NCBI GenBank assembly: GCA_002261195.1
Contig: MVBO01000154.1
Location: 1 to 34,687 of the forward strand
Origin: Bifiguratus adelaidae
Lineage: Eukaryota > Mucoromycota > Endogonomycetes > Endogonales
Direction of reading: 5' to 3'
DNA: 34,687 nucleotides
The position numbers were made by a program, and so were the translations under genes. Below are positions 1,858-34,687 of this stretch, in pieces (positions within the stretch are counted from its first letter, which is position 1; the number at the start of each line of letters is the position of its first letter). A model generated the notes under the pieces. That model ran no database searches. It was given only the letters and a program-made list of their open reading frames with translations, and had not been told where the DNA came from.

Positions 1858-3988
1858 ATGGGAACGGTCAGTCAGGATTGTACAGACTTTGGAACGGTCG
1901 GTGAATTACCTGCGACTCGCAGTTTGCACCTGCATTATGAGCAGCTCTTCCATCTGATATCGACGATTCCGGACACTACCTTGCGGGACACGGTACTTAT
2001 GCGGGCTGAGCTATGTGCTGTCACTAGCCGGAACCGGGATCAGACCATCAACGACATTATCTCGGCCCAGGCAGACAAAATCGTGCATTTGGAAACTCAC
2101 TATGAAAAGGCGGTTCGGGAACTCGCATTCTTTCGCAGAAAGTTTCAAAACGCAATGAAGAGCAAGAGTATGGTGACAACGGCAACTTCCGCTAATCGTC
2201 AGGACGAAGAGATCGCACGCCCCATGTCACCAGAACCTGGATTAGATATTAGCCGACGGCGAATCAGAGGCTCTTACGAGGAGCAGAGGGATCCAGGCTC
2301 CTTGTTTCGAGACACACAATTTTTACCGCAATCCGCTCAGCAAAGTTCTTCTTTGTCCTATCAGAAGTCCGAAATGTCGGCTGTGAATCCTTTGAAGCAG
2401 ACTTTGCCTACAGCTGAATTGAATGCGCGAAGGACAGTGGGACCTTCAACGAGGCGAGTCCTCGAGAAGAGATCTAGTCCGACCTTAACGCAATTGCCGC
2501 CGAATATTGTCACTAATCAATCTATCAGTCGGCCGGTCCGACAATACTCACAAGGAGACAGGCATCATAATGACGGAAGTATTGATGGCCATGAATCAGA
2601 TTCGCCACTGGATGACGTCTTGGATTTCTTTATGGGCGGAGATGTGCCATCAAATCGAAGTAGCACCTCGATCGCCACGCACTCTACGCGGAAGCGGCAT
2701 TCGGTTTTGGATACAGAACGACCTTTCCGGTCAGGCAATGCTAATGTGTCACCTCAATCGCCGACTATGAGAACGCCGTCGTTGCGGTATCATCATTCTT
2801 CGCAGTCCTCAATCTCAACGATCTTGACGCCACCTCTCTCGCGTTTGCAGCTCAACACTTCTGTGGAAGAAGATATTGACCAAGCCGGACAGTCTTCTGA
2901 GAGTCCAATGACGGGGGGAGCCAAAGGTCCGTTTAGATTACCATCAGCTCCATTCTCTTCGTTGTCGCTGCCAGAGGTGCTACAACGCAATTCGCAACTT
3001 CCTATCATCGGAGGTGGCGATAGGTTTTGGAGTTCCGTTGGTCGTATGTCGAATGACGAGGCTGCGTTCGCGAAGGTCGTCAGGTATGTCACATCGTCGA
3101 CTGTACGGTTGAAGGAGTGCTTACTTCCATCGAATTAGCAATTATTTTCGACGTGGTGGAAATCCTAATGTAGCCCAGCCAAAGTCGAACAATCCAGCCA
3201 TACCATTCGGACACACCCTAATTCACGCTGCGGTGTCTTTTCGGTACCATAAGCTCCTACATCTTATTTTGACGGCGGGTGGCAATCCTAATGCAGCATC
3301 TTTGGCTGTCAAAGAGGACAGCTGTGTAACACCGCTATATTTGGCGGCACGCAATGCAGACATCGACGTCATTCGCCTTCTAATGTCTTGGGGGGGAGAT
3401 TTGTTCACAGCCACTGGTGGTAGCAAAAAGAGCAAGTCTATCCTTGTTGCCGCTGTAGAAGCAGGAGACCGTAATACTTTGATATGGCTGCTCGAGCATG
3501 GTGCCGGAGATCTGCTTGCCCTCCCCGATATTGAGGGTATGACTCCACTTCACCACGTTTGTCAACTCAATCATCCAAATCTTATACAAACTCTTGTTGA
3601 AACATCCACCGGGAAGCGATTGCTTACCACTACCACGCTGGCCGAAGAAACACCCCTCCATATAGCCGCTCGCTACGGGCATTTGAATTGCGTCAAAATC
3701 CTGGTAGAGGCGTACGATGTCGAAATCAATATCGCCAGGAGCAAGAAGGGAGGAACATCCGTGGACGCAGGAAAGAGAGGAGGATCGGATTCGTGCAAAA
3801 AAGTAGTCGAATATCTAAAGAGCCGCGGCGGATTGTCTTACAAGAATCTGACCAAAGCTGAGAAGTCGCCTACCGGCACATTGGGAGACGTCGTCAACGA
3901 GTTTCGGCAGAGTAGCCTAAGTCTTGGTAGCTGGAATGGTAGCACATCTGGTTTGTTCAGCTCTTTGACCAGCAGGCGGGACGTGTAA
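1858..3988 (+). CDS. Ankyrin-repeat protein with disordered N-terminal half
   Basis: Two exons, 1858-3083 and 3139-3988, are joined across a 55-nt intron and give 691 residues. The first ATG in the open frame is at 1858; the frame also runs back to a GTG at 1834. Residues 1-100 look helical (LHYEQLFHLISTIPD, then a stretch that could form a coiled coil). Residues 100-405 are Ser/Pro/Arg-rich and probably disordered. From residue about 410 there are several ankyrin units, seen in GHTLIHAAV, VTPLYLAAR, MTPLHHVCQ and ETPLHIAARYGHLNCVKIL. The splice joins directly into the first repeat. No DNA-binding APSES domain is present, so this is not a Swi6/Mbp1 protein. Ankyrin repeats bind partner proteins, but the partner cannot be told from sequence. 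I do not recognise a specific orthologue. It ends 200 bp from the converging CHERP-like gene. Confidence 0.85.
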
Positions 3989-8942: not shown

Positions 8943-11900
8943 TCAATGGGATTCCTCATCGTCTCTACAAACGTGAGTCTTCCATAGGATGAACGACAAG
9001 AGTTGCGTGAGATGAGCCAAATGGTCCCTTTCGACGGGATCCAAGGGGTGAAAATCTTGTGTCGTGCGCTTGGTTCGCGAGACAGCCAGAAACTTCAGCG
9101 ATGGAGCCGATACATGTTGTTCCAACACAAGTGCAATCATGTAATTACTGCTTGTGGGGTTATAGAGGAGGAGATAGCGACGTTGTGTAAAACGGTAGCT
9201 ACGAGCTGGCTGCAGTGGATAGCTTGGTCGATCGTCCTTGGTGGGAAACATGCCTCGTTTCGATGGACCAGCCAAGCTACTGATGGATTGTGAGGAATTT
9301 TGGTGGGATTTGATTCCCCAACTCGTCTTTGGGGTTGCGGTGTGGTGACTGTAAGCGCGTTCAATCTGGTTCATGACGTCGTCCCAATTGGGATAGGTCT
9401 CGGATGCAGAAGAAACGCTTGCGGTATTCGCGAATGCCTGAACTACATCTAGAGGTGAATTGAGGAAAGAGGGAGCGTCGGTCAAGTCAATGCAAGAGAA
9501 ATGGCTCGGAAGTAGGAAAGGAAACGGGTCGACTTCGTCGGTAGAACTGGAGCGACTTGCACTGTGGGTCTCGAGCTTCTGTTGCAAGCAGGGATCGAAA
9601 AGATCGGGTATCTCTGCCAAGGGAGTGTGAAGCAGATATTGACTTTGCTGAAAGCGGCCCTCCCGTAGTGATTGCCAAAGCGAGTTTTGACTGTACAAGA
9701 CAATGGCCTGCAACGAACGCTGTGAGCACAAGGTCATCCATATCTGTATATGCATCTACCTCATTCAAGATGGCGTCAATTCGAGCTTCAACCACCTTGA
9801 GCATGTTACCCAACTCATTCCTGATCACCTCAAGGACCTTCGTGGCGGGCTCTTCGACCGGATAGTTGATGTTGCGGAAATTGTTTCGTGGAACGTAAAT
9901 GGATCCTGTCTTATTGCTACCCATATGGGTCGCAATAAGGCTGTAGTCGATTTGCAGACTGTCGGATGTATCCACGGCACCAAAAATTAGAGTCAGTTTG
10001 AACGGATGCATGGGTAACTTTTCCGCCTGCTTCGGGTGCACAAAATGGTTGAAATCTGTCGTATAGGTGAGGGCCACCTTGCCACCTTTCTGGGCAACGG
10101 TACCTAGACCGTGTCTCTGCGGGTTCTCCAACATGTAATCGAACAGTTTGTATCGCATCTCTGTTCGCGACGGTCGATACGTTCCTCGAAGCAAACGATT
10201 CCGCGAGTATCGACACGGATACGGATGGAAGACTGAGAAATCATTGAGCACTTGAACCAGGTCGATGTTGGGTTGCAGTTCTCTGGGCATGGTTGTCGTT
10301 TGCTGTATCCAGCGAAGTTGAAAATCGTGAACAAACGAGTTGATGTGAATTTTGGTCTTAAAATGTGTGCACTCGTTCATAAAAGTCTGAAAATCATGCC
10401 AATCGGATTGGTCACCTTCGCTGCCCTGTGCCGACATCTCCTGCCGAAGCTTTTTGAGTCGGCCATATTGCCGATGAAGAGAATACAATGTTACAGAAAT
10501 AAAACCGTCCTGAATCTTCACTTCGCACATGATTGAACCTCCGCGCAAGACCTTGATCAGATACAGAGACGGATACTCATTGCGGTCCGACTTATGATTG
10601 AATTCTCCATAGTTGTATCGATTAGGTTCGACACTATCAAGGAGTCCATAGAATGCAATGTGCATTCCTAGAGTTTCCAGATACGAAGCATAGTCCTTCA
10701 TAAACTGTTCAACCATTGAACTGAACCACTTGCTATCGACCTCTGCATTTTTGCTCTGCGGTACCGGTCGTTCTTGCTCGTCAGTGCTAGAAGTTATCAA
10801 GCATGGGGTCCGACCAAAATGAAGAAGTCGTGACGATCGAAAGACAACTCTGAGGTCGTTCATTGGCAGCTTTGCCGGGACTGGAACGGTGGAAGTCTTG
10901 GTGCTATCGTACTTCGCTGCCCACCGAAGGTATATTTGCAGCGCCTTCTCATGTGCCTCTTCGAGCGGGGCATGCCGAGCATAAGCTTCCAAAAAGTATT
11001 CTCCATGTCGCGTTAAGGCATCCGCAACTTCATGGTACTGGTAACGTGAAAGCGTGTTGCCAAACGTATCGCGATACACCTCATTGAAGTCAAACGTGCG
11101 GCGATCGGATGGGTTTTGAGATTGACCATGTTTTGGTTTCCAAGATTCCTTGTAGCCCGTTTGCGTTGGCGTCGGAAACTCTGCATAGACGAGCTCTGTG
11201 ACCATTGCTCGTGTATCAGACAACGGAGAGGCAGAATTATCCTCATCAGTTGCGGCAGCAATTGCAGTTAGATTACTTGTTGTTTTCATGTGACCGGGTG
11301 GAGATGCTCTGGCTAGTTGCGGAGATCCAAAGATTTTGTGAGGCGAGATAGATCGCGCAGAATTGATGCCAAAACCAGGTTGCGAATAGAGCTCATGCCA
11401 CTTGTCGGACAAGCTAGCTAATGAACTCTCAAAGGAGACCTCGTGCTCGAAGAGCCCCATCTTTTGATGCAAAATGTTGGAAAGCAGATACTTTCGCGTT
11501 GCATGATTCTTAGTGATTGCAACAACATGACTTTGAAGCGTTGTCGCGTCCTCTTCAGAAAGTTTGTAGGTGGAAATCTCGACTGAACTGCACGAAATGG
11601 AGATAATGAGGAGGGCGGATCCTGCGTTGACCTTCACTTTTGGACCGTCCAGGCGATAAAAGCGGTCAGTATTTTTCATATTTGGACCGATTTCTGTTAT
11701 GCGAGTATCGGTTGGAGCAGCATGCTGACTGATTGGAGTAGCGCGAGAAGAATGGAGCAAACTGGATTGCTTGTCAGTGGATGAACGTCGGCTCTCGTCT
11801 GCAGAATTATTTCGGGAATGAGTGCGGGTGGGAATGGATGGCCCGGAGTTGAAGCTATCGTGGCTTTTCCTTCTGTCATGGACTCCTCCTCCGCGCTTGT

Positions 11901-14900
11901 CGACCTCCTGGACTAACGGTTGAAGACCACTCACAACGTAATACTTCGCGTTGTCGCCGCTGTCAATAGCTGTTGGCCACGCTTCAACGAGCATCATTTC
12001 CTTGCTGTTATCCACGCTTCGCTTCATGACTATCGGAGGCGCCCAATGATCCTTTTTGACAACGGAGCATAGATTCTTTATGCATTCTTGGAAACTCCAC
12101 GGCGCTAGGTCAGTAGACATTGCCAGTTTCGTCACGAGAAGGTTCTTGATAGTTGCTGCATGATCCAAAAGCTCCAAGACAGGATCCAGGAACCCTTGGG
12201 CATCTCTTAGAGCCATGCAGGCTTCTGTAGAAAGACGCAAATAGCCGTCTGACCAGACTTCGATGCCATTGTTGAAGAAAGAGGTCACCGTACGATCAAG
12301 CATCAGATTCGACACTGCGTGCTCAAAGCATCGACGCACATGCAAGTGCAGGGCAGACGCATTGACATTGCCCATGGGCCAAATTTGTATGTTGATCCAC
12401 TGCTGCGCTGGGCGTTCGTCCGATTTACTTTCACGGGAAAGCGGATACTCAGCATAGGGTGCGTTGCCTTCAATAGTCAACCAGATGCCCGCCAGGCCGA
12501 CACCGACACTGCCCTCAAGTGTTGGCGATGACGTAGAATGTCTGCTGTCGAGGTTGTTATAGTAAAGGCAAGCATGTCTACGGGGATCAGACGGTCTATA
12601 AAGCAATTCAGTATCGTTAAGCGACCTGTTCCGAATACCACTTACACATCATGGTTACTACGCGTTAAACGTTCCTGCAAGGTCTCAGCCACAACATTAT
12701 CTTGGATGGGCCGTATCTGCTCTGATCGCAAAGCCTTCTTTATGTAGTCCAGCAATATTGTGGGATTGGGTATATATTCCCGCAACTTCCAAGGTGTCTT
12801 GATGGCAGGTCTCCGATTCGGGAACACAAATTCCATTTCCTGATCGTGCATCGATTAGTCTGGCGCCAATGCTTTTAGCGGGCAACTTACCATCTTGGTC
12901 CATTTCATGGTCTTGTTTCGTTCAAACAACGAAGAAACCTGAGGCAGAACTACGCGATTCTGCAATGGTGTTTCGAACATAGCAATGACATTGTTGCGCA
13001 GCGATGGCGAAAGCGGATCGATGCCGTAGATATCCAATATGACTTCTGATGAGTGTTGCGCTCGCACGCCAACCTTGGGTGACATTGGTTGCAAACTCGA
13101 TGATGTATGTCGAACTTGAGGGGTGGCTTCGACCGGACGGTTATCACCATGAATTTGCGTAGATAAGGCCTTCATTTCTGAAGTGTTTGTTGCATCTCCT
13201 TGATTGAATGAGCCGCTTCTGCCTTCACGAAGCCGACAGTAAACGATAACTTCACGTTTTGCCTCGTCCTCCATGCGAATAACGTAGAGGTTAGACGGTC
13301 GAACAGCTTTGGTATTGCCCATGAATTGCGGCATCAATTTGATGGCATTTTGTGCGTCGAGTCTCGGATACAAATGGAAGACCTTACTGTAAATCCTGTC
13401 GCACTGGAACTCGCCAAAATGGAACAGAGAGTTGTCGGCGCTGTTGCTTGGCGAGAGCTCTTTCAAGATATCATGCGCTATCGGATCATCTTCCTCAAAA
13501 GAGGAATTATCCGAGTTTGATGTTTCCGCTGGTCCTTCGTCGTATTGGAGCAAATATTGGCTACATATGCGTCAATAGGTGCGTCACGAGAGAGTAAGGG
13601 TTTCTACTCACCTGCATTCCATGGTCTGCTGCAAGTGACGCAAAAGGATCACTTTATTTGTCCGCCTTTGCGCGTCCAAGACCTTTTCCCTGATGGTGTC
13701 CATAAGACCTAGCCTTCCTCCAGTACTAACATCCACCCTCGAATAGAAAAGCAATTGGACATGCGCTTGGTCAGTGCGCACAAGTAACCAGAACGGTACG
13801 GATTCTTCTGGCGTATCTTCTTCTGTTTCGGGGATACTCGGTAGAGAATCTGTACTCTTCTCCAGCGAGATGCCCAGACCCTCAAGATCAATATCGTGCT
13901 CCTCTGCCTTGAAATCGTTATCATCGTCACCATGCCGAATCTGTTGCCACATATTGTTCCGGCCGGTGACGAAGAAATTGTTTCCTACTTGACGTAGGTG
14001 AAAGGGAAGGATGCTCATACGACCCAATTGACCAAGGAAGCATTGATAACTCTCCCGCTTACTCATACCTTCCTTTAGCGACACGAACGCAAGCGGAATG
14101 GAGTAGGTAGTCGGAACATTCGTATAAAGACATCCTGTTTGTAGTTCCATCTCTGCGTAATTGAAAACCGCATCGGTGACTGGACGCAGCAGCATCAGAC
14201 CGTCGAGTATTGTTTCGGTCAAGTACCACATGAGGCGACCATGTGAGTCTAGAATGTCGGCTTTTTGCTGCACTGTTATTTGTGAGCCGACAGTCAAGTT
14301 TGGCATAGGAATACGAGGAAGCGCGCGACCGGCGCTAAACCTAATGAGCATGTCTGTGAGCAACGGTTTGGACCCTCAGCAAGCGCTTACGTGTCAACGG
14401 GTTTCTCCCAAGCATCCATGTGGGCTTGTGGCTCGATTTGGGCGTTGAAAGGATCCGCCTGCATTGTTGGCAACGTGATGTAAATCAACCGTAGAACAAC
14501 CTTTGTCCCATTGACCGATTTGACGGGCGACTCTTCATCTCCAATCACGGGTGGTGTCCAAACGTCTTGAGGCATTGGGTAGGCGTGAGGCAACAGGTCC
14601 ACCTGATGGGTTTCGGATTCGGGAGGCTCCACCCTAGTATATACACATTCAAGTCGCAACAAGAGTGGATTTTGGCACGCTTCAGCTAGCGCTTTCGAGA
14701 TGACGTCCTCGTCCATGGGCTGCCCTTCACGTTTGAAGGCACTCAATGATTGGCGCAAAAGGGACTTGTTGTAGAAGATAGGACCAGCAGGTTTGCCTTC
14801 AAACAATTCCACACGCGAGAATTGTGCGGCGATGATATCGGCAAAGTTTTCATCCAGTTTATCATTGGACAATCCGCTACATAAAGGGCTGTCAGTGAGC

Positions 14901-17900
14901 AATTCATCTCAAACACTATGCAAGGAACTTACTTTCCGCCGTGACGTGCTCGTACCTGCACATTAAGGAAATCGGTAATGCCGATCTCCGTAGATGTTTC
15001 GATGCATATGTCAAGCATTTTCTGAAAGTCAAATCCATCGACGGCTTGTCCATGCAACATCGCGGCATAGACACTTCGAGCGAAGTTCCGATTGTATAGC
15101 TGATCGAGATCCTGCACCAAGCGTAAAGTGCGTTCAGTGGCTGACATGTTGACGGAACCAGGGTCAATAACACCCTTGTATAGGTTGGGTTTGATGGGAT
15201 TATCGATGGCATCCAACTCAGAAATAACCGCCGGAATGGATTCGAATCGAATCCTGGGGGCATGCGAAATGGTGAAGTCTTGGAGATCGCTGGCAGAGGC
15301 GCGACGATGCGACATGTGTTCTGATTTGATGATACCCATCCTTGAGCATTCGAAAAGGAAAGCACCCCAGGCAATATCCGATGCCGACATATCCTGATTA
15401 TGCGCGACCGGGTTCCTTTCGTGAGCTCTGGGACACCTTTTCAGACAACCACCTTTCGGAAGAAGTAGGGCGACCAGTGATCTTCCATCGTAAGCTTTGA
15501 CAAAACAACGAAAATCCTTCCACCGATTGACACCGTGTACTGCACACAGATGAGCCTGTCCGTCTTCACATTGGGACACAGCCTCGCGAAGAGCCTTGAG
15601 AAATGATCCCGAGAGATGAACGTCTTCCAGAATGACTTCGCCATCCGTGACCTTGGAAAGGCAGGTCGCCATCAATTCATTGAGCAAAATCTGACAATGC
15701 AGACGCGGCACCCGAGAGTGAATAATTTCCTTTCCCACTTTCACCTTGTCCTTCAAGGCGTCCGCTTTCATATGTGCCGTGGTCGTTGTTGCCGGTGGAT
15801 TATGCATGATAGGCGAGGCTGTCCGACTGCTCTGAGAAATTCGCCGATGAGGGGCCTTTGTGCTTGTTTTGTCCTCGAACGCACTTGCTTTAGCGGAAGG
15901 ACCAGGCGCCGAGGGCATGATGGTGTCGTACGCTTTGCCGGATGGTGCGGTCTCGTCGATCGCGTCAATCTCAATGTCAACATGCTTAATTTCGGTGAAA
16001 ACTGGAGTGTTGTACGAGGCGAGCGTTAGGTGACCATGAGTGAGAACGGATAGAATGTTGTATAGGGCTTTTCGGCGAGAATCTGTTCGAAACTCAGAAG
16101 GAATGTGCTCGTTTGTAAGAAAGGAGGCACCAATGAGAGCCCGCTCCCGGCGCCGGGCCATAACGTGAAGCTCATCAAAGGTCATGATTTGAGAGATGAG
16201 GGAGAGGTCACGGAAATTGATCGCTTTGGCGACAGCGTCGAAATAGGATCGTAAAGAGAGGTCTTGTGTGGGTTCCATCCATAATTGTGTCTTGATCTCT
16301 CCCATTTCAGGGTCCTTCCACAGAAAATGTTGGACGGCAATGGCTTCAACGTGATCGGGCTGGGAGATCTCTTGGTAGAATTGAATGCGATCGGGTTGGT
16401 TGAGAACGAGGATGGCACCATCGTCCAGCCGGGACTGACAAAGCCGCTGAAAGGCGACATCGTGCATCGCGGGTAGTTTATTCGCTGTCAGGTGAGCTGA
16501 ATTATTCATTGGCATGAGCCAGCACCATGTTTCACCACGTAGATAGTTTTTGGCAATGTACTTGCTGGATAGCCACATGTCGGACGGCATATACCACGAT
16601 TTGATTTTGCCAATCTCTGAGAGCTCTGTTGATGTTGAAAACTCTTTTGCAGAAGCTAGACGATAATGCTCGCGGTCGCGCAACAGTAAGCGATGTAATG
16701 GTCGTGAGCAAAGATAGGCGTACAGTTCTGGGGAAGCGGATACATTATCCTGGCTGGAACGCGGAGCAACTGATTCGGTGTCAAGAGTGTCAAGCAAGCT
16801 CTGCATTAGGCGCGAACGTTCGGCAGCTTCCACATTAAAAAATAGCAAGCGTAAATTCAAAAAGCATCCAATTTCGCGCCGTATGCGTACTTCGCAAAAA
16901 GATGGCATATCTGGTTCTCGCTCCAAAGCCATGATTCGACGCACGTAAGCGGCACCACCGGTCGTGGCGTCCGTCGCCTTGAAATGTGACCATTGGGCTA
17001 ACCTTTGGTGGACCGTGCGGACATGCGATTGGGTGAGCGATTCACTCTGCTCAAAGAGATGCAGCTGTCGATCCTCCGTCTTGAGACCCACAAATGGCGA
17101 AACGCCGGTGATGATGAGATTGATACTCGCCAACTCATACCAGCATTCCGTGGCAGCGCGAATGGGATGTGCTTCAAGGTTTTGCCAGGCGGCCACGAAC
17201 TGCGTAAGATTGCCACTTTGTTCTCGTTCGGTAACCTTTGGACTGATCGCCAGAGATGGCTCGTCAGACGCGATTCCTTTTGGGGGCTGCATTGTCGAGG
17301 CTTGATCAGCCTCAGAGCTGCCCGATGCGTCCGCTACCCAAGATTCCAACAAGTCATCCAATTCACTAGTCTGACTCAAGAACCGATGCAATTTATCAAC
17401 TTTGCTATAGAGAGGCAGACTCGAGGTGTCACTCCGATCTTGCGAGTATACTTTGCTGCCTTGGAAAGTTCGTCCCTTGCTCCGTTGTACCGAATGGAAA
17501 TTGCAAAACAATTGCGCAAAAGGGGTGTAGGCAATCACATGGATCTCTGTGCGCACGCGCCCGGTGATACCGTGATTGGGTTTCCAGGACGCTCGCACTG
17601 AATAATCAACGGTCACATTCGGTAGCCAGAGCATGCGAAAAGAGATGCGTAGTACCTTTGGTTTCTCTTCGGCGTTGGATGGAGATGTACTGTTGTCCCG
17701 CTTTATGTCGCCGTTGGAAGCTTGCTTCTTAAGTGTGGCTCCGACCTCGTCCTCAAGTGGCTCAGTGTTAGGATCCGTGAAGGCGATCCAGTGCATTCGG
17801 AACCCTTGTCGAATACGAGCGCCGACAAATGCTTCAAACAATCGCGCTGGAAAATGACCTTCCCTGTACTTGATAACCGTCAGATCCACGGAGGGGGGCA

Positions 17901-19690
17901 CACTGCGTAAGGTCCACGGAAACACGGCTGGCAACAAGCCAGCAGAACGATCGACTTCAACGCGTCCAGAATGCAACCCATAGCGTTCTCGCACCTGGTC
18001 CACAGGTGGGGTATCAGAGGACGCATAGAGTGGCCTGGATAGCTCGGTTTTCAATCCAGAATAGCGGTTCTCGTTCTTGTTGCGGACGAGTATCGTCTCG
18101 CGGATGAGAAAGTTGACGTGATAAAAGTTTGCTGCATAGACGATGGATGATGTGTCGCCATGATTGCGTTGGGACTGAGCTTTCAATGGGTATCTTACTG
18201 CCACGTGGGGAGCGGATGCTGTTCTGCTGATGGTCGGCAGGGATCGCTTTGCCACGTCCACCGGATGAGGAGGCTCGGTTTCCAAGCCTGTCGCGACATG
18301 ATTGATATCGGCATTGTCTACCGTACTGGTGGTGTGCCTCAAGCTGTGAGCATGTCCCTCAATCTCTGCGACCGAGAGGCAATCGGCTCCATAGGCAAAG
18401 GTACCTCCAGTGGCCGTGGCAACAAATCTCAACACTTCACTGTCATTGGCGAAACCAAAATTCGCTGCCGGGACGAAACCAGCATTGGAGCCGACTTGAA
18501 TGACATGCACCGGGATATCCCGTCGCGTATAGGTCTGAACGATTTGTTCGTCTGAAAAAGATGAGTTGTTGACTCCATCCGTCACCAGAACCACGGTCCC
18601 TTTGGCCTTTTTGGATAATAGTTCCAAGGCAAACAAACCTGCATGTAGATGATACGACAATTGACTTCCCGTCTTTCCCACGCCCCATTCATTGGACGAT
18701 TTCTGCTTGTTCTGCCCTTCCTCCTCATCGCGATCTGGGCTCTGCACCGCGTTACGCGGCAACTTTTCTCCTTCCTTTGTCATTTTGTTGGCCGTTCTAC
18801 CCCCGTCTCGACCAGCTTTTGCTCCTGTGGTCGATGACATGTATCGGTCGGGAATATCCTGCGTGGCGACATCACGATCTCCAACGTCCAGCTCGTAATG
18901 ATCTTTTTCTACCTTGTGCCGTTCTCTCCGTACATGTTTGCGAAAATCGGCCAACAGCTGTTGAAATCCAAACAATTTTCTCTTCACGTAGGCAATGATG
19001 TCGTGCGCATTTTGGCCATTGACCGAGACATCTTGTAGAATGACACTCAGAGTAGGGAAATTGGCGAGATAGGGAATGTAATTAAGGTTGGAGGCGAATT
19101 GTGCGCATTCGACAATGATGGTTATGTTGATCTTGATATCAGGCTGAATAAAGCCGCCTTTCGGAGATGTTTGGGCCGCAAACGGACGAACCATGCCCTG
19201 AATACAATTGCTTAACACTTTAAGCGCAGCTTCAAACATGACATCCCCGGTGGCTGGATCAATGGCTCCCAGACTAGAACTGATATCGACGAGAAAGACG
19301 ATCTGTTGTTCCTTGGCATAGGAGAATATCCGCGTATGAGGTGTGATGCGGTACCGTTTGCTCGGTTGCCCTTCCTCCTCATCGATACCCGTCGCAATAT
19401 CCAACTGAACGCCAACGCCCTTCTTTCCGTCTCGGCGTTTCTGAGGCAGCGTTCTACTCGGTAGCGCCCAGGGTGACTGAGCATGGCTTCTTGACGCCGT
19501 TACCTGCACCAGGCTGATATCCTATCCTCGCCGTGAGTCTAAAGCGCGTCAAGTACACGAACCTTACCTCTCTGTCTTGTCGATATTCTGACTGCAACAT
19601 CACCGACAAGAGCCATGGAGAGAGAGCCGAGCCATTCTTGACACAAAACAAGGCACTCGCAGCCTCTGATGTCTGTGTAGAAAGTGTCAT
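8943..19690 (-). CDS. SZT2: SZT2 homologue (KICSTOR scaffold, TORC1 pathway)
   Basis: Exons: 19690-19568, 19503-14933, 14876-14391, 14340-13612, 13560-12891, 12839-12646, 12595-9760, 9719-8943; introns 64, 56, 50, 51, 51, 50 and 40 nt. The joined frame gives 3,461 residues, close to human SZT2 (about 3,430). Near residue 110 a VWA-like fold starts with FLVDISSSLGAIDPATG and continues through ALKVLSNCIQGMVRPF; later come a GLFALELL helix and the strand VVLVTDGVNNSS. These match SZT2 in order. Further along are LVALLLPKGG, the helix-rich middle, VPFWLLVR, the block LYVIRMEDE..VIVYCRLREG and VILDIYGIDPLSP, all in SZT2 order. In animals SZT2 holds KICSTOR together and brings GATOR1 to lysosomes so that starvation shuts off TORC1. 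The first exon is short and uncertain; an internal ATG at 19600 is possible. It is divergent from CHO1. Confidence 0.85.
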
Positions 19691-20959: not shown

Positions 20960-23900
20960 CTATTGAAATGTGATCCATTTTGACTTGTCTCTCCAGAAAC
21001 GGTAGGGAGAGGAGGTGTAGGGCAAAATGTTGAATCGCACAAAACCTCTCTCCAAGTCATGCCGTAATCGATCAGCACCAACCGGCGCCAAACTGGACAT
21101 AGCATGCGCATAAGCCCCAAGGTACAGCAAATTCTGCCAGCCTCCGGATGAATAGGACCAGGGAGCTTGTCGCGGAAAGTAAAGGTTGAATTGATCGTGG
21201 ATCGTACTTCGACCTGCGCCGTCATAGAGTCGTAGCCACCGTACATGATTCGAAACCGCCGCTCGAGATGTTAAATCCAGGCATGAGCTCTGCACGTCTC
21301 CATCCTTCCAAAGGCCTCGTCGTTTCAAAAGGGTCGTCAAGTCGAATTGATATTGATCGAGAATGGCCAATACCAAGGCATCCATAGATTCCGGCTGAGT
21401 GTTTGTCCCGCCGCATTGGTGAGTCAGACGACGCAATAGCCTCGCACGTTGGCTGATGGCCAATTTCGCCTTGGCGTTGCGTTGTCCTATACGCTCCATG
21501 CCCTGATACGCTCCATCCTCTTGGACCGAAGCGGTAAACCGTCCTTGAACAAGAACAGGCACATTGTAACGGTCCGGCGAGCGACGGTCGACGGTGACAG
21601 GCATACGCCTTGTGCCTCGGGTGATCGAATGCCATTCGGCCGGCGACGAAATAAGTGTCGTCTTGAGCAAAATCTCGGCTGTCCATGCAAGCACATGGTC
21701 TTGTTGTGTCGTGGCCTTGACCAACATGTCCTTGTAAACCCGTAGCTTCAATTGAAGAAACTCGGCAATGTCCTTACTTGACAGGACGAACCATGGCAGA
21801 CTAACCAATTGATGTGCGTCCAGGATATAGTGTCGTGGTGAAAGGTCCGGGCTGTCAATCAAGGCGTTGACCAATGGATGGACCCATCGATGTGCGACCC
21901 TATACTCGTATCGCACGCCAAAAGTGCGTGTGCTTGCATTGGCCAAGGCATGATTCAAACGTTGGCATATGCGATCCAGTGATTGCTGGGCGGTGGATCG
22001 ACTCGTCACGTTGGCATGGCCACTTTTGTAAAGCGCACGTCGTAAGGATATGTAAAGAGCGTCTTGTGCATGATCGTCTTGGGCCACGTAGGCTGCAGTC
22101 GGGACATGTTGAAAAGGATCGGGGGCTCGTGCGTCGGCCCACACGTTCTTGATGGAATTGTAGCAGCTCACATAGCTGATGCCGGACGCGTCTGCATCAA
22201 TGCTTTCTCCGCAACCATGGTGCGCATCGTTGGTGTGTGAGAAGCTGTACAACCGTTGCTTACTGGAGGAGATGTGATTTCTCGAGAGCCACGCTTCAGT
22301 AGCTGCTTTCTTGTGCAAAAGGACTAACGCTTGTCGTGATCCTGCGAGAGCACTTTGATGTTCAAGGCATACTTCCATGCCTATATCGTACTTGATACCT
22401 GTCAGCTTGTCAAAGTCGACATGGTGCTCCAAGCTTTGACAGATAATGGCCCAGTCCTCCCAGCTACGAAATTTGTAGACCAGTTTCCGGCCTTCGATAC
22501 AACAATGCAAGAAGCAGGATGCCCATCTGTTGCGAAGGGCGGACCGACTGTTTTGAATATTGGCTTGGATGGTGGTCCACACTTGTTCCAGACTGTGACC
22601 AGGAAGCGTTTGGAACCGCGTTTTCGATCTGGGCAAACCGTGCGCTTCCTCCGTCGATCCTCGAGAAGGCAATGGCCCTGATATGCTTTCCAGTCTGAGA
22701 TGTTGTAAAACGTCTGTGGGGTAGGATTGTCGAACGGCGGGCCAAACAAAATGTTCGTAGAATTCGTCAATGTCACGCCATTTGACTTTGGATGGCCCAT
22801 CGCAGGTAGGGGAGTAAAGATGTGGGGCAAACAAGTACAGTTTGCACGCATTCATATGGCCAAATTGTCCGAAAAGGAAGTGCGGTACTTGCCACATGGG
22901 TATACTCTTGCGAGCCATTGATTCGGGAACATGCTGATTGTCCGCAACGGTGACTGATACATACTCGTGGTTATGACGAGGTAAATTCCATGTCGGTGAT
23001 GCATTGAGACAGAGCTGTATTCCTTGACGCGCTACGGATAAACATGTTGCAGTACTGTACATTGAATCGAGATCAAAGGTGGTGTTTTGTCGAACCCGGA
23101 TACCTTGTAAACAAGATTCTCGCAAACTCAGCCGGATAGGCATGCCATTATTTCGACTGGCGAAACTGGACAACAAGTGTTCCGACATGCGCTCAGTGTC
23201 AACCTTGAGCTGACTGTTGAATGTTGAGAGGTTCCAGGAAGCGCCGTAGGGTTCTGGGGTCTGGTCCTGCAGGGTCTGCAAGTGAAGGATCCCCTCCCAA
23301 TCAGGTTGATAAGCATGGTCTAGGATAATGTCGTCTGTGTGACATGCATTGTCCACTTGTGAGTATGTAGTATGGTCCCATGACGCCTCCGCAGGTTCCT
23401 GATAATCAGGTATAGTCAATTCGGTTCGAAGCGGATTTTCTTCTGGGACGTCGCTTGACCAAAGGTCATCGATAAAGCTAATACATAAGTCAATCCATAT
23501 ATCGGGCATGAGTGGCTCATGTCTCACCCGTCTGTCTGGAAGGAGGTCAGGTTGTCCTGAGCCGCATTGTCCCCAAACACATTGCTAAATCGAGTTCATC
23601 TCTTGTCTTTCTTTTCTACGATTAGGTTTGTACTTACTTGTCGGCAGCGAATGTTGCTTGTATAAGAGCATTACCGTCGATCAGAAAGCTTGGCACATCT
23701 TGTCTCGGGATATGATCTTGGGAAGAGAAGGGTTGGGATGATGATGATAGCCGGTGTGGACCGTCATTCACGTGTTGTTCAGCTACTTCCCCCGGCCTTT
23801 TATCATGATCAGCTGCACAGGTCGACAGAACGAGATTATTACTTACTCCGTCTCGAGGAATTGGAGACAAGGATCCTCTTCGACCAATGCTGGATACTGT

Positions 23901-24286
23901 TCCATGAGGGCATTACTTTTAAACTGCTTTGAATTCAAGGAATTCAACAACGGATCAGGTATCTCCGCAGGGTATGTAGTCACAACAGAACGCATCGCAT
24001 GTCTCTCGTGCGCAACATCATTTGTCCTGTCGCGCACAATGATCGCGTCCAAGGGAACATCCGCACACTGTGTTGCCGACGTGCCTCGCTTTCTTCGCTT
24101 TCCCGTGATACATCTCAACAAGTGAGTGCGCCGGCCAGCAGGGCTTTTGCAAGCATCCGTTAGCCTGGTTTGACAGTGGGGACATGACTTGCTCGAAGAC
24201 CAAGCGGGGAATAGAGCTTTCTGCTCCGCCAAACTCAGTCGGTCCCAGATATCATCTGTGATGTCCTCGTGGATGTTGATAGACAT
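20960..24286 (-). CDS. Unknown large protein with N-terminal C2HC zinc finger
   Basis: Exons: 24286-23847, 23796-23638, 23584-23528, 23477-20960; introns 50, 53 and 50 nt; 1,057 residues. Residues 35-59 fit a C2HC zinc finger, C35-x2-C38-x16-H55-x3-C59, followed by a basic stretch (GKRRKRG) that could be a nuclear signal. Residues about 100-300 are acidic and Ser-rich. The long last exon holds a globular region with many aromatic residues (WQVPHFLFGQFGHMNACKL, LYLFAPHLYSP, FYEHFVWPAVRQSYP) and ends in an aromatic tail, PYRFWRDKSKWITF. I do not recognise a named family. The layout resembles large lineage-specific families of unknown function in basidiomycetes, some of which are linked to transposable elements, but that is an impression. 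No DDE or reverse-transcriptase motifs are seen. Function unknown. Confidence 0.75.
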
Positions 24287-25227
24287 TGGCTTCGCATTGC
24301 GCTTGGAAGATCATCTGCACCATTCGCAGAAGCCAAAGGAGCAATGATCAAGAGGGAAGGACGTTGGCAATAAGGTCCTCAACCCTTTTATTGTTCTTGT
24401 AAAACGTTAAGCGGCAACTCAAATTTCGACTTAGGGTAGGTTCCATTTCGCGGACTTCGATGGTGTTATGACAAAGGATGAAGTAGCTGGAATGTAGAGC
24501 GATTGGATTCCTTTTACTTGTAGAGGAGATGCTGTTTAAATGCCTAGAGGAGACACGCTTAAAGGGATGACGAAGAGTCCGTCCTAAAACAGCACCCTTT
24601 CACGTCTTGTTCGTTGTGGATTTTCCTTTATCCGTTCATGATACTATACTGCGATAGCTGCTTGCATCGTCTGTATATGATGAATTGCCACACTCCCGCC
24701 TCAGGAACCAAGTTGATCATGGAGAGCCGGCGAGTAAACAAGCTCCTCTGGGCGAGGCCTTGTTTTAGTGATAGATATCGTCAGATGCAGTAGGTGGAAC
24801 GTGATCATGTGCCATAAAGGGGTTAAACCGCCTAGAGCAGATCAACCTGCGAAATGTGATACGCCTTGTTTCTCCTTGCCATCACTGGAACGTACCTTTG
24901 GATGATTTATTGGGAACAAAAAGGCCCAGGGGCCACGTCTCCTTTGATGGCGCCATGAAGCATGGCCCATTCTCATCGTGCGAAACCAGCCAATGGCATT
25001 TTGCGTATGCCAAGCAGAAACAACCTTATTTCGCGCAGCATTAACATAAAAGGAGTCCTCCGCACGGGTTACCCTTTTATGCCAGAGCCACGTGCCTGTG
25101 CATGAGGAATACCAGGAACACCCACGGAAGGTGTAGATCAACCTGTTTTTCGTTGGACCAGTCGGTCAAGGCTGCCTTGGCGTATCGATTGCGACGTATA
25201 CAAGTGTAGATCAAGATTGCGCTCGGG
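24287..25227. other. Long divergent intergenic region
   Basis: These 941 bp lie between the start codons of the zinc-finger gene and the GATA-factor gene. Short open frames exist on both strands, but none shows a family motif, a consistent splice pattern or unusual composition. A CCAAT sequence occurs near 24990. It probably holds the two promoters. I see nothing else that I can support. Confidence 0.5.
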
Positions 25228-26598
25228 ATGAGTGCACTTCCAAAACCAGAGCTCATGTACAACAATGATGAGAATATGAGGGATCATCAATTCTCCAACG
25301 ACAATTCTGACTCGACGTCGCCTGGTCCGCGAGAACTTGTCAAAGAATGGTATCCCTTCACGTACGACCTCGGTACAGACGTACAAGACAGGTATCGGCA
25401 TGCGGAGACAGACTATTCGGGACCGGCGAGCAACGAATCTTATGGTGCCGCCGCATTTCAGCCATCAGATCATGTACAGCCGTCGATGGCGCGTAGGTAC
25501 TCCACAGAGTCCTACCTCAGCCATGAGCTTGCAAGCGATGGGATGTCCCATGACTCGACCAACCTTCCTCTGCGTAACTACAATCACACGTACCAAGAAC
25601 ATGTGCCCGCGAGTTCGCACAATGGTTCAATGTGGAACAATGGAGCGAGAGCTATCTACGATGGCCGATTTGATTGTGTTGCTGATCGCTACGGTTACAT
25701 GCCGCTGACGCAGCCTTATGCCGCGTATCAATCACACGTGTCGGCACCATATCTGGTTCCAGGCGCCAGAGGCCGATCCATGTCGTATTTGCCATCATTA
25801 GCAATGCAGCTTCCTGATCCAGCTTATCGAAGCGACCTTTCTGGACCGCCTGACTACTCATTTCATTTGGGCAGCTCAGAGCAGCTCAAACGTGCTTCAT
25901 CCTCTTCTTCGTCCAGCACAACAAGACGGCACAATAGCACATCTAGCTCAGAACAAGCCCCCAAGAAGATTTGCAGCAATTGTCGCACGGACCAGACTCC
26001 TTCGTGGCGGAGGGATTCAGAGGGTAAGGAACTGCTTTGCAACGCCTGTGGACTCTAGTAAGTGTCTTTTGTTTTGGTTTCAATGGAGGACAGTAACCGT
26101 ATGGTCAGTCAAAAACTACACAAAAGGCCAAGGCCAATCTACATCGCCGCTGATGGCACGATGAAGGTCGCGCGGGGAAACAACCACCAAGTACAGGCTT
26201 GCGATCAATGCCAATCCGTGGATTGTTCCATCTGGAGAAGAGTGAACGGCAGCGTTCTGTGTAAGTCGTAACTTTAGAAACGCCTTACTAAGTCTCCGTG
26301 GATAGGCAATCCTTGCGGATTGAACGCACGACGCGCACAGTACAGCTATGAGCACGACATGTCTTGTTCCGTATCGCTCTCCAGAGCGCCGCTATCGCCC
26401 TCATCGATGGGGTTTTCATCCTCGCAACAAGAGTACCATCTCTTTTCAGCAGACAGTAACGTTTCTCAAGACCAACAGGTATCCGGAACATCATCTGCAG
26501 AATATGAAGCTGCAGAAGGCTGTCAAGGAAGCGTGTGCTCGTCCGAGCAAAGGTTGCATGGCATCGAACTTCAACAGCCGTGTCCGGAGCAGATTTAG
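25228..26598 (+). CDS. GATA-type transcription factor with two zinc fingers
   Basis: Exons: 25228-26057, 26094-26260, 26306-26598; introns 36 and 45 nt; 429 residues. Residues 1-240 are low-complexity, rich in Tyr, Ser, Pro and His, with a poly-Ser run before the fingers. Finger 1 is C249-x2-C252-x18-C271-x2-C274 with the core TPSWRRD and CNACGLYNR; it continues with KLHKRPRPIYIAADG, a conserved basic tail. Finger 2 is C313-x2-C316-x16-C333-x2-C336 with IWRR and CNPCGLNARRAQY; it is shorter and divergent. Each intron sits inside or just after a finger, which supports both splice calls. GATA factors bind (A/T)GATA(A/G) and control nitrogen, iron or light responses in fungi. Two-finger iron regulators use an x17 loop, so this is probably not one of them. 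The target process is unknown. Confidence 0.85.
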
Positions 26599-30403: not shown

Positions 30404-31582
30404 TCATTGTTCAAGCACATAGCGATATCGCACCTTGCCTTGTCTCATGCCTTCAATAGCATCATTGACTTTGTCCATGGGAATCTTTTCAATCCATGGG
30501 TGTACATTGTGTTTCTGTGCAAAATCAAGCATCTCGCGAATCATATCTGGCGATCCAATGACGGATCCAGTGATGATCAATTCCTTGAAGGCGATCAACG
30601 TAGCCGACAAGCCGCTTAGACGCTTGTCTGGCAAGCCTAAAAGGATGAATATACCTTCTGGGGCCAGCACATGAAAGTAGGCGTCCCATAACTGCTCTGA
30701 ATCACCTATAGCTGTGCAAACGATGTGGGTAAAGTAGTTTTCGTACTTGCGAACCGCCTCTTGGTCCTTCCACACGAGAAATTCATCGGCACCGAGTTGG
30801 AGGGCATCTTGCTTTTTCCTCTCACCCGATGAAATGGCCACTACTTTAGCTCCCATGGCTTTGCTCCATTGGATGGCTAGATGGCCCAATCCGCCAATGC
30901 CCACAACGCCCACTGAAAGAAGCGTTAACTTTCCACGCAGAAGTTGGTCCAATTGGCCTACCTTTGGAACCAGGTCCCACATGGTGCCTTTTCAAGGGGG
31001 TGTAGGTGGTCACCCCAGCACACAACAAGGATGCTGCTTCGTCATTCTCGAGTCCATCGGGTAGCTTGAAGACAAAGCGTTGATCACCTCGCCATCGATT
31101 ACCATACCCTCCATAGGTCGGTGTGCCTTCGGGCCAGGTATCATTGTACGTCCAAATGAATTTCGGGCACAGATTCGCTCGACCACTCTTGCAATACTCG
31201 CAGGAACCACAGGCACCCGATTGAGCTCCTACGCCCACACGATCACCCGGTTGAACATGCTTGACGTTTTCACCCGTTCGGGTCACGTTGCCAGTAATTT
31301 CATGTCCCACCAGACACGGATACTACACCCCATGAGTGGGGGATCCACCACATACCATTCACTCACCTTCGTGGGACCCCATCTAGTTCCATTCATGAGC
31401 ATGGGTGCTTTCATCTCTGCACCTACTTACCCAGAATCCATCGTATGAACATCTGTCCCACATATCCCACAATGAGTCACATCAATGTCTACATCATCCT
31501 CTGTAAACGTCTTGAGAGGCAATTCTGTCTCCCTTAACTTCTCTCCCTTGCCAAAACACGCATATCCATTCACAATATCCAT
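30404..31582 (-). CDS. Zinc alcohol dehydrogenase, NADP-dependent Adh6/CAD type
   Basis: Oxidises or reduces primary alcohols and aldehydes with NADP(H), probably in the cytosol. Exons: 31582-31431, 31382-31367, 31322-30962, 30912-30404; introns 48, 44 and 49 nt; 345 residues, normal for the family. The catalytic zinc ligands are visible as C38 (THCGICGTD) and H63-E64 (LVGHEITG). The structural zinc ligands are C94, C97, C100 and C108 (GACGSCEYCKSGRANLC). The nucleotide-binding Rossmann turn is VGIGGLGHLAIQW. The second exon is only 16 nt and encodes most of WGPTK, a stretch conserved before YPCLVGHE in Adh6 proteins, which supports it strongly. The closest relatives are yeast Adh6/Adh7 and cinnamyl alcohol dehydrogenases; the true substrate is unknown. 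It is divergent from SLA1 with a 266-bp shared promoter. Confidence 0.92.
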
Positions 31583-31848: not shown

Positions 31849-34687
31849 ATGACCTATCTAGCAGTCGTCAAGGCCGTGTATGACTACTCGGCGACCAATG
31901 AAGAGGAGTTGGACATTGCGGAAGATGATGTCTTGTATGTTCTAGAGAATGACGATCCCGAATGGTGGAAAGCGCAAAAGAAGATGCCGAATCCCGAAGA
32001 GACGGGCCCCATAGGCCTCGTTCCAAAGACATATGTGGATGAGGCAAGTCGGAGGTGTTGTCGGTACTCGGGAGTAGGCATACTAAGGTTGTGTAGCTTG
32101 CACCGATAGGGCACGCTACAGCCCAGTTCGACTATGAAGCGGCCCAAGACGAGGAACTCCATCTCTCCGAAGGCGCAGAACTGGATATTTATGAGATGGA
32201 TGATCCAGACTGGTATCTTTGTGGCTGCAACGGTGTTATAGGTTTAGCTCCGAGCAACTATATCGAGATTGAGGTGAGTGCGAACATGCATGCGTGTAGG
32301 CGGTTGTTCTTAACAGAGCATCGTACAGAGTCAAGGTGCGGAACACGAGGCCGAGGCCGACGGAGCCGCCGGTGAGGAAGAGTTTCACGATGCCTCTTCG
32401 AATCTTCACCCAGAGTCAGTCTCCCCAGGACCTGTAAGTCATGGGCATTTCGTGCACATTATCGATATTGACTTGGCGCGCCTAGCAAACACCTTCCGAG
32501 CCCTACGTAGATCCCCTGAAGGCCTATGCGGCAAGGGCGCATTCATTCTCTGAGAGTACACCAAAAACCGCTAAGCCAGCCCCGGCATTCAAGCTACCTG
32601 CAGATGAGATCAAATCATGGCCGGTGCAAGAACTTGACAAGAAGAAGAAAAAGAAGGGCAAAGGCAACTTGGGCATCGGAAATCACATGATCTTCTTTGG
32701 TTCGGAGACCGATAAGACCTCCCCAGTGAAACAGTGGGATATTCTGGACGTGCAAGAGTTTACACAGGATGGAAAGATGGTCAATCTCGCAATGGGAGGA
32801 GCCAAGGCAGCCACATTCCAGTTTTCATTAGGATCCAAATCTGATGCGAAGGCCTTGATTCAAAAGATTCGCGACTCCCAAGCAAGCGCATCAGCTCAAA
32901 AACCTAGTGAAGAGGAGGCCGCCGCTCCGGCAACACCTTCCTATAACCGCGGATCCTTTGCTGCCGCCATACCGACGCCACCTGGTCCTCCATCACAGCC
33001 TGAAACACCTTTTGAAGATTATCCGGAGCCTGTCCATGAACAGCCTGTCCAGGAGGAAGTGGTTGCTGAACCTCCGTGCGAGCCCCGATGGGGCGTCACC
33101 CTATACCCATTTCAAGCTGAAGGAGAAGATGAGCTCAGTGTTGGTGAATTGGACCAAGTGCTCATTATTGATTATGTGACGAGCGACGACTGGTGGAAGG
33201 TGTCTTATGAGGATGGCAGTGGTCGCGAGGGTGTGGTCCCGGCTTCATATCTGAAATTTCAAGAGGATTATGATGCCGACGTTGTGGCAGAGGAAGAGCA
33301 AAGACAGAGAGAAGAGGAAGAACGTCTTCGCCAGGAACAGGAATACCAAGAGCAAATGCGACTCGAGGAAGAAGCTGCAGAGAGACGAAGACAAGAAGAG
33401 CAAGATGCTTGGATGGCGCAAAAGCTACAAGAGGAAGAGGTGCAAAAGCGGAAACAGCGCCAGGAGCAGGATCGTCGAAAGGAGGCCGAGAGGCGTCGTA
33501 AGATGCAAGAAGCCCGGAGGCAGGAGGAGGAAATGGCTCGCAAGAGAGCTGCTGCACAGAAACAGGCCGAAGCACCTCCGCTTCCCCCACAGCCGTCGGC
33601 CCAAGCTGCGTCCAACATGACGCGAGCCGCGCGACCACAAGCTCAATCCGCCGGAGGGCAGGCTACCAGCAAGCCTGACAGCAGCAAGCTGCGTACTTGG
33701 ACAGACCGTACTGGGTCCTTCAAGGTTCAAGCGCAATTCCTCGACTATGCAAACGGCAAAATTCGACTACATAAGCTCAACGGCGTCAAAATTGATGTTC
33801 CGGTGGACAAGATGTGTGCCGAAGACATTCAGTTTATCGAAGAGCATATAGGCGAGAAGATTGTCGAGGACAACGACAACACGCCACTTGGACGGATCCA
33901 ACCGCCAAAGCAAGCACCAGCTATGAACGGCTCAGCGCTCAAGTCTAGTCCCAAGGCACCTGCCAATCAGAACAAGTCTGTGAATCCAGACTGGGACTGG
34001 TTCGAGTGGTTCTTGGCTGCTGGTATACCCATGACGAACGCAATGCACTATGCAGATGCCTTCAAAGGAGAGCAACTTGATGACAGCGATATCAACGATC
34101 TAAGCATAAGGAAGATGCGGGAGCTGGGTGTCAAAGATAAACATTTGGTACCACTTCAGACTTATATTGCGACTGGGCAACCCATAGCATCTGAAGAAGG
34201 TGCGAAGGAGGCACCAGAGAATTCTCGCAAGCGAAATGTTTCGTTTGGCGATACAAGCATCATAGGCGAGAGCTCGAGCAAAGACGCTAGGCAACAACAG
34301 ATTGATGACGACGAACGTTTTGCTCGTGAATTACAAGCCATGGAAAGCAACAAGACCCCAATATTCAGCAAGAATAGCCCAAACATTCAGAGGAGAAATT
34401 CGCGTCCTACACCTGCAAACGCAGCACCCAAAGATGTCAACGCCAGTGCTATCGCTCAAGCCAAGGATTCCATCAATGTGAAACCACTTACGCCGACGAA
34501 AGCGCCAATTATCACGACACCGCCTGCAAAGGACACTGGAAACCTTGGGTTCGATGATGACGCTTGGACACCGCGTGCCTCCCCGGCTACCACTGCTCCA
34601 AAGCCTGCCACCACTGTTAGTCAATCGACTCCAAAGATATCGCAACCCCCGGTCAACGCGCAAGCTCCTCCACCCCCACCCCCACCT
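31849..34687 (+). CDS. SLA1: Actin-patch endocytic adaptor Sla1 (3' end cut)
   Basis: Sla1 links clathrin coats, NPFxD-bearing cargo, Las17/WASP and Pan1-End3 at actin patches. Exons: 31849-32043, 32097-32273, 32329-32433, 32486 to the window end; introns 53, 55 and 52 nt; 893 residues are visible. Domains in order: SH3-1 (residues 3-65, AVYDYSATNEEELD), SH3-2 (about 70-124, AQFDYEAAQDEELHL), a PH-like region (HMIFFGSETDKTSPVKQWDI), SH3-3 (about 360-420, LYPFQAEGEDELSVGE), a Glu/Arg-rich coiled coil (about 421-520), SHD1 (about 560-625, RTWTDRTGSFKVQAQFLDY, the NPFxD-binding domain), SHD2/SAM (about 660-725, WDWFEWFLAAGIPM), then a Ser/Thr/Pro tail that enters poly-Pro at the edge. The first intron starts with GC rather than GT. 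The C-terminal repeats lie beyond the window. Confidence 0.95.

Follow-up and report, generated by a model that had tools for sequence, protein, structure and literature searches.

Can a fungus encode SZT2 at full length, and, if so, would the protein do there what it does in animals? The question is raised by a locus of Bifiguratus adelaidae (Mucoromycota, Endogonales), lying on contig MVBO01000154.1 within a stretch of 34,687 nucleotides that was analyzed as a whole and is referred to here as the window. In animals, SZT2 anchors to the lysosome a complex that restrains growth. Positions 19690-8943 of the minus strand contain a single gene of eight exons and seven GT-AG introns, which comparison of its predicted product with known proteins confirms as B. 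adelaidae SZT2, full-length.

The SZT2 identity proposed in the initial annotation is borne out by a profile built from six fungal proteins. Searched against the Protein Data Bank (PDB), this profile matched four different chains at E≤0.1, every one of them SZT2 (best E 1.1e-115), and the match runs end to end as seven colinear stretches between profile positions 17 and 3315 of 3323. Single exons also reach human SZT2 in the PDB, with E 8.6e-11 for exon 2 and E 4.5e-9 for exon 7, and exon 2 additionally gives weak matches to phosphoenolpyruvate carboxykinase (best E 0.0078). No other family matched better in the PDB profile search, Pfam, or NCBIfam, and with the whole protein as query neither Pfam nor NCBIfam gave a family at E≤0.1. 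The likeness to human SZT2 (PDB 9o5a, 9v0j, and 9v6e) extends to length (3,463 amino acids [aa] in Bifiguratus, 3,432 and 3,451 for the PDB chains), to the order of conserved stretches, to the N-terminal vWA-like motifs, and to matches in both halves, while the overall similarity is low and single-sequence searches align short stretches only.

The N-terminal vWA-like region, which in human SZT2 runs from DLSPSTGIVDDSTG to TDGV, is present in the Bifiguratus protein, where DISSSLGAIDPATG pairs with human DLSPSTGIVDDSTG and VLVTDGV pairs with human IVITDGV in the alignment. Of the other five fungal rows, four have TDG and three have DxSxS; both vWA-like places are missing from P0005, and P0006 has a gap at the first. 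Landmarks beyond this pair were compared among the fungal proteins only. For VPFWLLVR, the tryptophan followed by hydrophobic residues is common to the relatives, and for the last motif, VIVYCRLREG, VY or FY followed by C or M is common, while RMEDE is peculiar to the Bifiguratus protein.

Several observations weigh against this assignment. One of the seven profile stretches is weak (E 0.033), and about 39% of profile positions fall outside the matched stretches. Searched alone as a single sequence, exons 4 and 5 with most of exon 6 gave nothing in the PDB at E≤1, a point of difference from human SZT2, so the middle of the protein rests on the profile. Structure prediction for two pieces of the protein produced weak models, with mean predicted local distance difference test scores of 47.6 and 43.7 and predicted template modeling scores of 0.39 and 0.34. 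SZT2 ranked first in the fold search for both of these low-confidence models, with global TM-scores for the SZT2 rows of 0.17-0.24 of the query and, for the exon 7 alignments, a root mean square deviation near 30. Of 21 N-terminal fold matches at E≤0.001, 17 are to proteins other than SZT2, comprising 7 integrin I-domains, 4 mussel thread-matrix chains, 5 chains of repair or pre-initiation complexes, and 1 Ku-telomere chain. The vWA-type chains among these fold matches, together with the sub-threshold Pfam matches of the first 1,565 aa to vWA (E 0.023) and DUF5396 (E 0.051), are what might be put forward for a giant vWA-domain protein other than SZT2. We consider that explanation extremely improbable, given that the profile matches SZT2 chains only and that exon 7, distant from the vWA region, matches SZT2 as well.

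A further point is whether the locus is one gene. The eight exons join, as the initial annotation had proposed, into a 3,461-aa frame on the minus strand in which none of the five landmark motifs is missing or repeated. Splice sites were placed by consensus, with the intron 1 acceptor at 19504 and the intron 7 acceptor at 9720, giving introns of 64 (or 46), 56, 50, 51, 51, 50, and 40 (or 52) bases in order. Nearby splice-site choices keep the full-length frame in 8 of 48 combinations (3,455-3,467 aa), and the deposited protein BZG36_04764 (P0001; "hypothetical protein", Bifiguratus adelaidae) is letter for letter the 3,463-aa variant with acceptors at 19522 and 9708. The division of long frames by seven short introns supported by consensus alone could be taken to indicate two or more adjacent genes. 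This is highly unlikely, since the depositors likewise annotated one gene and since in five relatives from early-branching fungi the counterpart is a single long protein, each aligning in order along the Bifiguratus gene: Parasitella (3,448 aa), Sporodiniella (3,283 aa), Calcarisporiella (3,321 aa), Rhizopus stolonifer (2,856 aa), and Rhizophlyctis (3,541 aa). These relatives have diverged strongly from the Bifiguratus protein, with identities of 25-29% in the multiple alignment. When they were cut into 450-aa chunks (tails below 450 aa excluded) and searched by tblastn, 27 of 34 chunks matched the gene at E≤1e-3, 3 matched weakly (E 0.005-0.054), and 4 found no match to it; the best matches follow the expected order along the gene. 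With splice sites set by consensus, the joined product is a single protein close to the 3,400 residues expected of SZT2.

Whether SZT2 has its usual partners was addressed in the whole genome (18.6 Mb, 286 contigs). Of the proteins that the initial annotation named as partners to look for, KICS2, ITFG2, DEPDC5, NPRL2, and NPRL3 were found and KPTN was not. Since 3 of 4 KICSTOR subunit genes (SZT2, KICS2, and ITFG2) and all 3 GATOR1 subunit genes are present, this is not a solo SZT2. The Bifiguratus ITFG2 is long by a rough join (Table 1); human ITFG2 is about 447 aa.

The failure to find KPTN in the genome with human, Linnemannia, Blastocladiella, and FG-GAP_3 queries counts against a complete animal-like complex, with the proviso that fungal kaptins diverge strongly. 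Human kaptin, the core of Linnemannia kaptin, and a joined Blastocladiella/Linnemannia kaptin core each returned no match in the genome. Full-length Linnemannia kaptin gave three weak matches, all within query residues 735-832, a charged low-complexity tail, and inspection by eye of two of the three loci revealed nothing kaptin-like. Five FG-GAP_3 rows fell at two places (contigs C113 and C210), judged by eye to be other genes, which we take to be ITFG1-like and glycosylphosphatidylinositol-phospholipase-D-like. A 12-sequence kaptin profile found none in the window and 23 loci, a small share of the genome. The miss has some weight because the same search tool did pick up a control, a 450-aa piece of Calcarisporiella SZT2 with 27% identity. 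It is not proof of loss, because the identity between two fungal kaptins (P0156 and P0157) is just 24% across 273 columns.

These two kaptin homologs both carry the source name hypothetical protein. P0156 (675 aa) is from Blastocladiella emersonii, and P0157 (912 aa; human kaptin E 3.3e-20) is from Linnemannia zychae, presumably a member of Mortierellomycota. Barua, Plecha and Muszewska (Sci Rep 2025; PMC11836306) describe a three-protein KICSTOR in Mortierellomycota, with which the kaptin homolog in L. zychae contrasts; P0156 and P0157 may bear on that description.

The same paper describes KICSTOR across Mucoromycota and other early-branching fungi, contrasts this with an earlier statement of its absence from fungi, and suggests that fungal KICSTOR may recruit GATOR1 to the vacuole; no functional test of such a tether appears in the parts consulted. 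B. adelaidae is named there for Ltor1, another protein, so its proteome was evidently examined. Compared with the KICSTOR of non-Dikarya fungi as presented there, Bifiguratus is alike in having SZT2, KICS2, ITFG2, and GATOR1 and differs in that KPTN was not detected. The paper also gives more than two SZT2 copies for all Mucoromycota, whereas a search of the whole Bifiguratus genome with exon 2 (window 14933-19518) matched only itself, a search that a distant copy or one without the exon 2 part would escape. SZT2 thus appears to be single-copy in Bifiguratus, as judged from this one query. A literature search turned up no paper on KICSTOR structures among the titles listed.

What the protein would do is suggested by the human structures. 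The 1,349-aa SZT2 chain of 9o5d (KICSTOR-GATOR1-SAMTOR), to which the N-terminal matches belong, is resolved with GATOR1, DEPDC5 being in the same entry, and the 1,245-aa human chain matched by the C-terminal half comes from entries that also contain kaptin and, for 25gf, KICS2. Sequence is conserved in both halves of Bifiguratus SZT2. Because of this, and because GATOR1, KICS2, and ITFG2 have been kept, an SZT2-based vacuolar tether is the simplest reading. SZT2 would most likely date back to the ancestor that fungi and animals share and have been retained in early-branching fungi. Its N-terminal half would hold GATOR1 and its C-terminal half would join KICS2, ITFG2, and, if present, KPTN; GATOR1 so placed on the vacuole would be able, under nutrient shortage, to shut down the Rag GTPases and TORC1. 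By analogy with the human complex, SZT2 would then tether GATOR1 in Bifiguratus. We have good confidence in this reading as a whole, an ortholog that probably works as in animals. Within it we infer the line of descent, the assembled complex, its place on the vacuole, and the control of TORC1.

A true SZT2 could also persist in Bifiguratus after GATOR1 tethering was lost, or with tethering done without KPTN by an altered three-subunit KICSTOR. The non-detection of KPTN by a tool that recovered the same-sized SZT2 fragment is in line with this, as is the three-protein complex proposed for Mortierellomycota in PMC11836306. We nevertheless regard it as unlikely: kaptins as dissimilar as the two fungal ones are easily missed, KPTN is mentioned in the same paper for Rhizopus delemar, likewise of Mucoromycota, and GATOR1, KICS2, and ITFG2 are all kept. 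More doubtful still is the specific proposal that Bifiguratus has a KICSTOR free of kaptin, with GATOR1 placed on the vacuole by nothing more than SZT2, KICS2, and an enlarged ITFG2, which would make the KPTN arm dispensable in nature.

The coordinates of the SZT2 exons, the neighboring genes, and the partner genes are collected in Table 1. A further candidate lies in the window at 30404-31322 on the minus strand, where two overlapping frames resemble, by eye, an intron-containing gene for a zinc alcohol dehydrogenase.

Table 1. Features of the SZT2 locus and its window, and partner genes located in the B. adelaidae genome.
Feature	Position	Strand	Basis or remark
SZT2 exon 1, start codon	19568..19690	-	agrees with deposited protein P0001
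SZT2 exon 2, vWA-like domain with DISSSLGAIDPATG and VLVTDGV	14933..19503 (deposited model: from 19521)	-	PDB SZT2 match, E 8.6e-11
SZT2 exon 3	14391..14876	-	joined frame
SZT2 exon 4, VPFWLLVR	13612..14340	-	joined frame, motif
SZT2 exon 5, VIRMEDE / VIVYCRLREG	12891..13560	-	joined frame, motif
SZT2 exon 6	12646..12839	-	joined frame
SZT2 exon 7, within C-terminal half (human structures: beside KPTN and KICS2)	9760..12595	-	
SZT2 exon 8, stop codon	8943..9719 (deposited model: from 9707)	-	joined frame, deposited protein
Ankyrin repeat protein	3113-3988	+	
874-aa open frame	20960-23584	-	sub-threshold MADF (E 0.0083); no Pfam family passes the cut-off
Short cysteine-containing frame beside the 874-aa frame	23843-24310	-	no Pfam match
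GATA zinc finger protein	25210-26058	+	
SLA1-type protein	32486-34687	+	
ITFG2	contig C54 (L012)	-	genome search, ~929-930 aa by rough join
KICS2	contig C9		genome search
DEPDC5/IML1	contig C43		genome search
NPRL2	contig C214		genome search
NPRL3	contig C133		genome search

We class the locus as a member of an established family in a lineage where that family was already on record; PMC11836306 has made the main point for the phylum. That such fungi recruit GATOR1 via SZT2, with loss in the yeasts, is a reasonable proposal and not a new one; since the idea has been published there, what the gene contributes is a case of SZT2 at full length, apparently in a single copy. The only new edges are a possible kaptin-less KICSTOR and the apparently single SZT2 copy; should the lack of KPTN be confirmed, that would be the valuable addition. 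Provided that the scaffold functions as its animal counterpart does, the model yeasts would have lost KICSTOR, and such fungi could serve as genetic models of how KICSTOR holds GATOR1.
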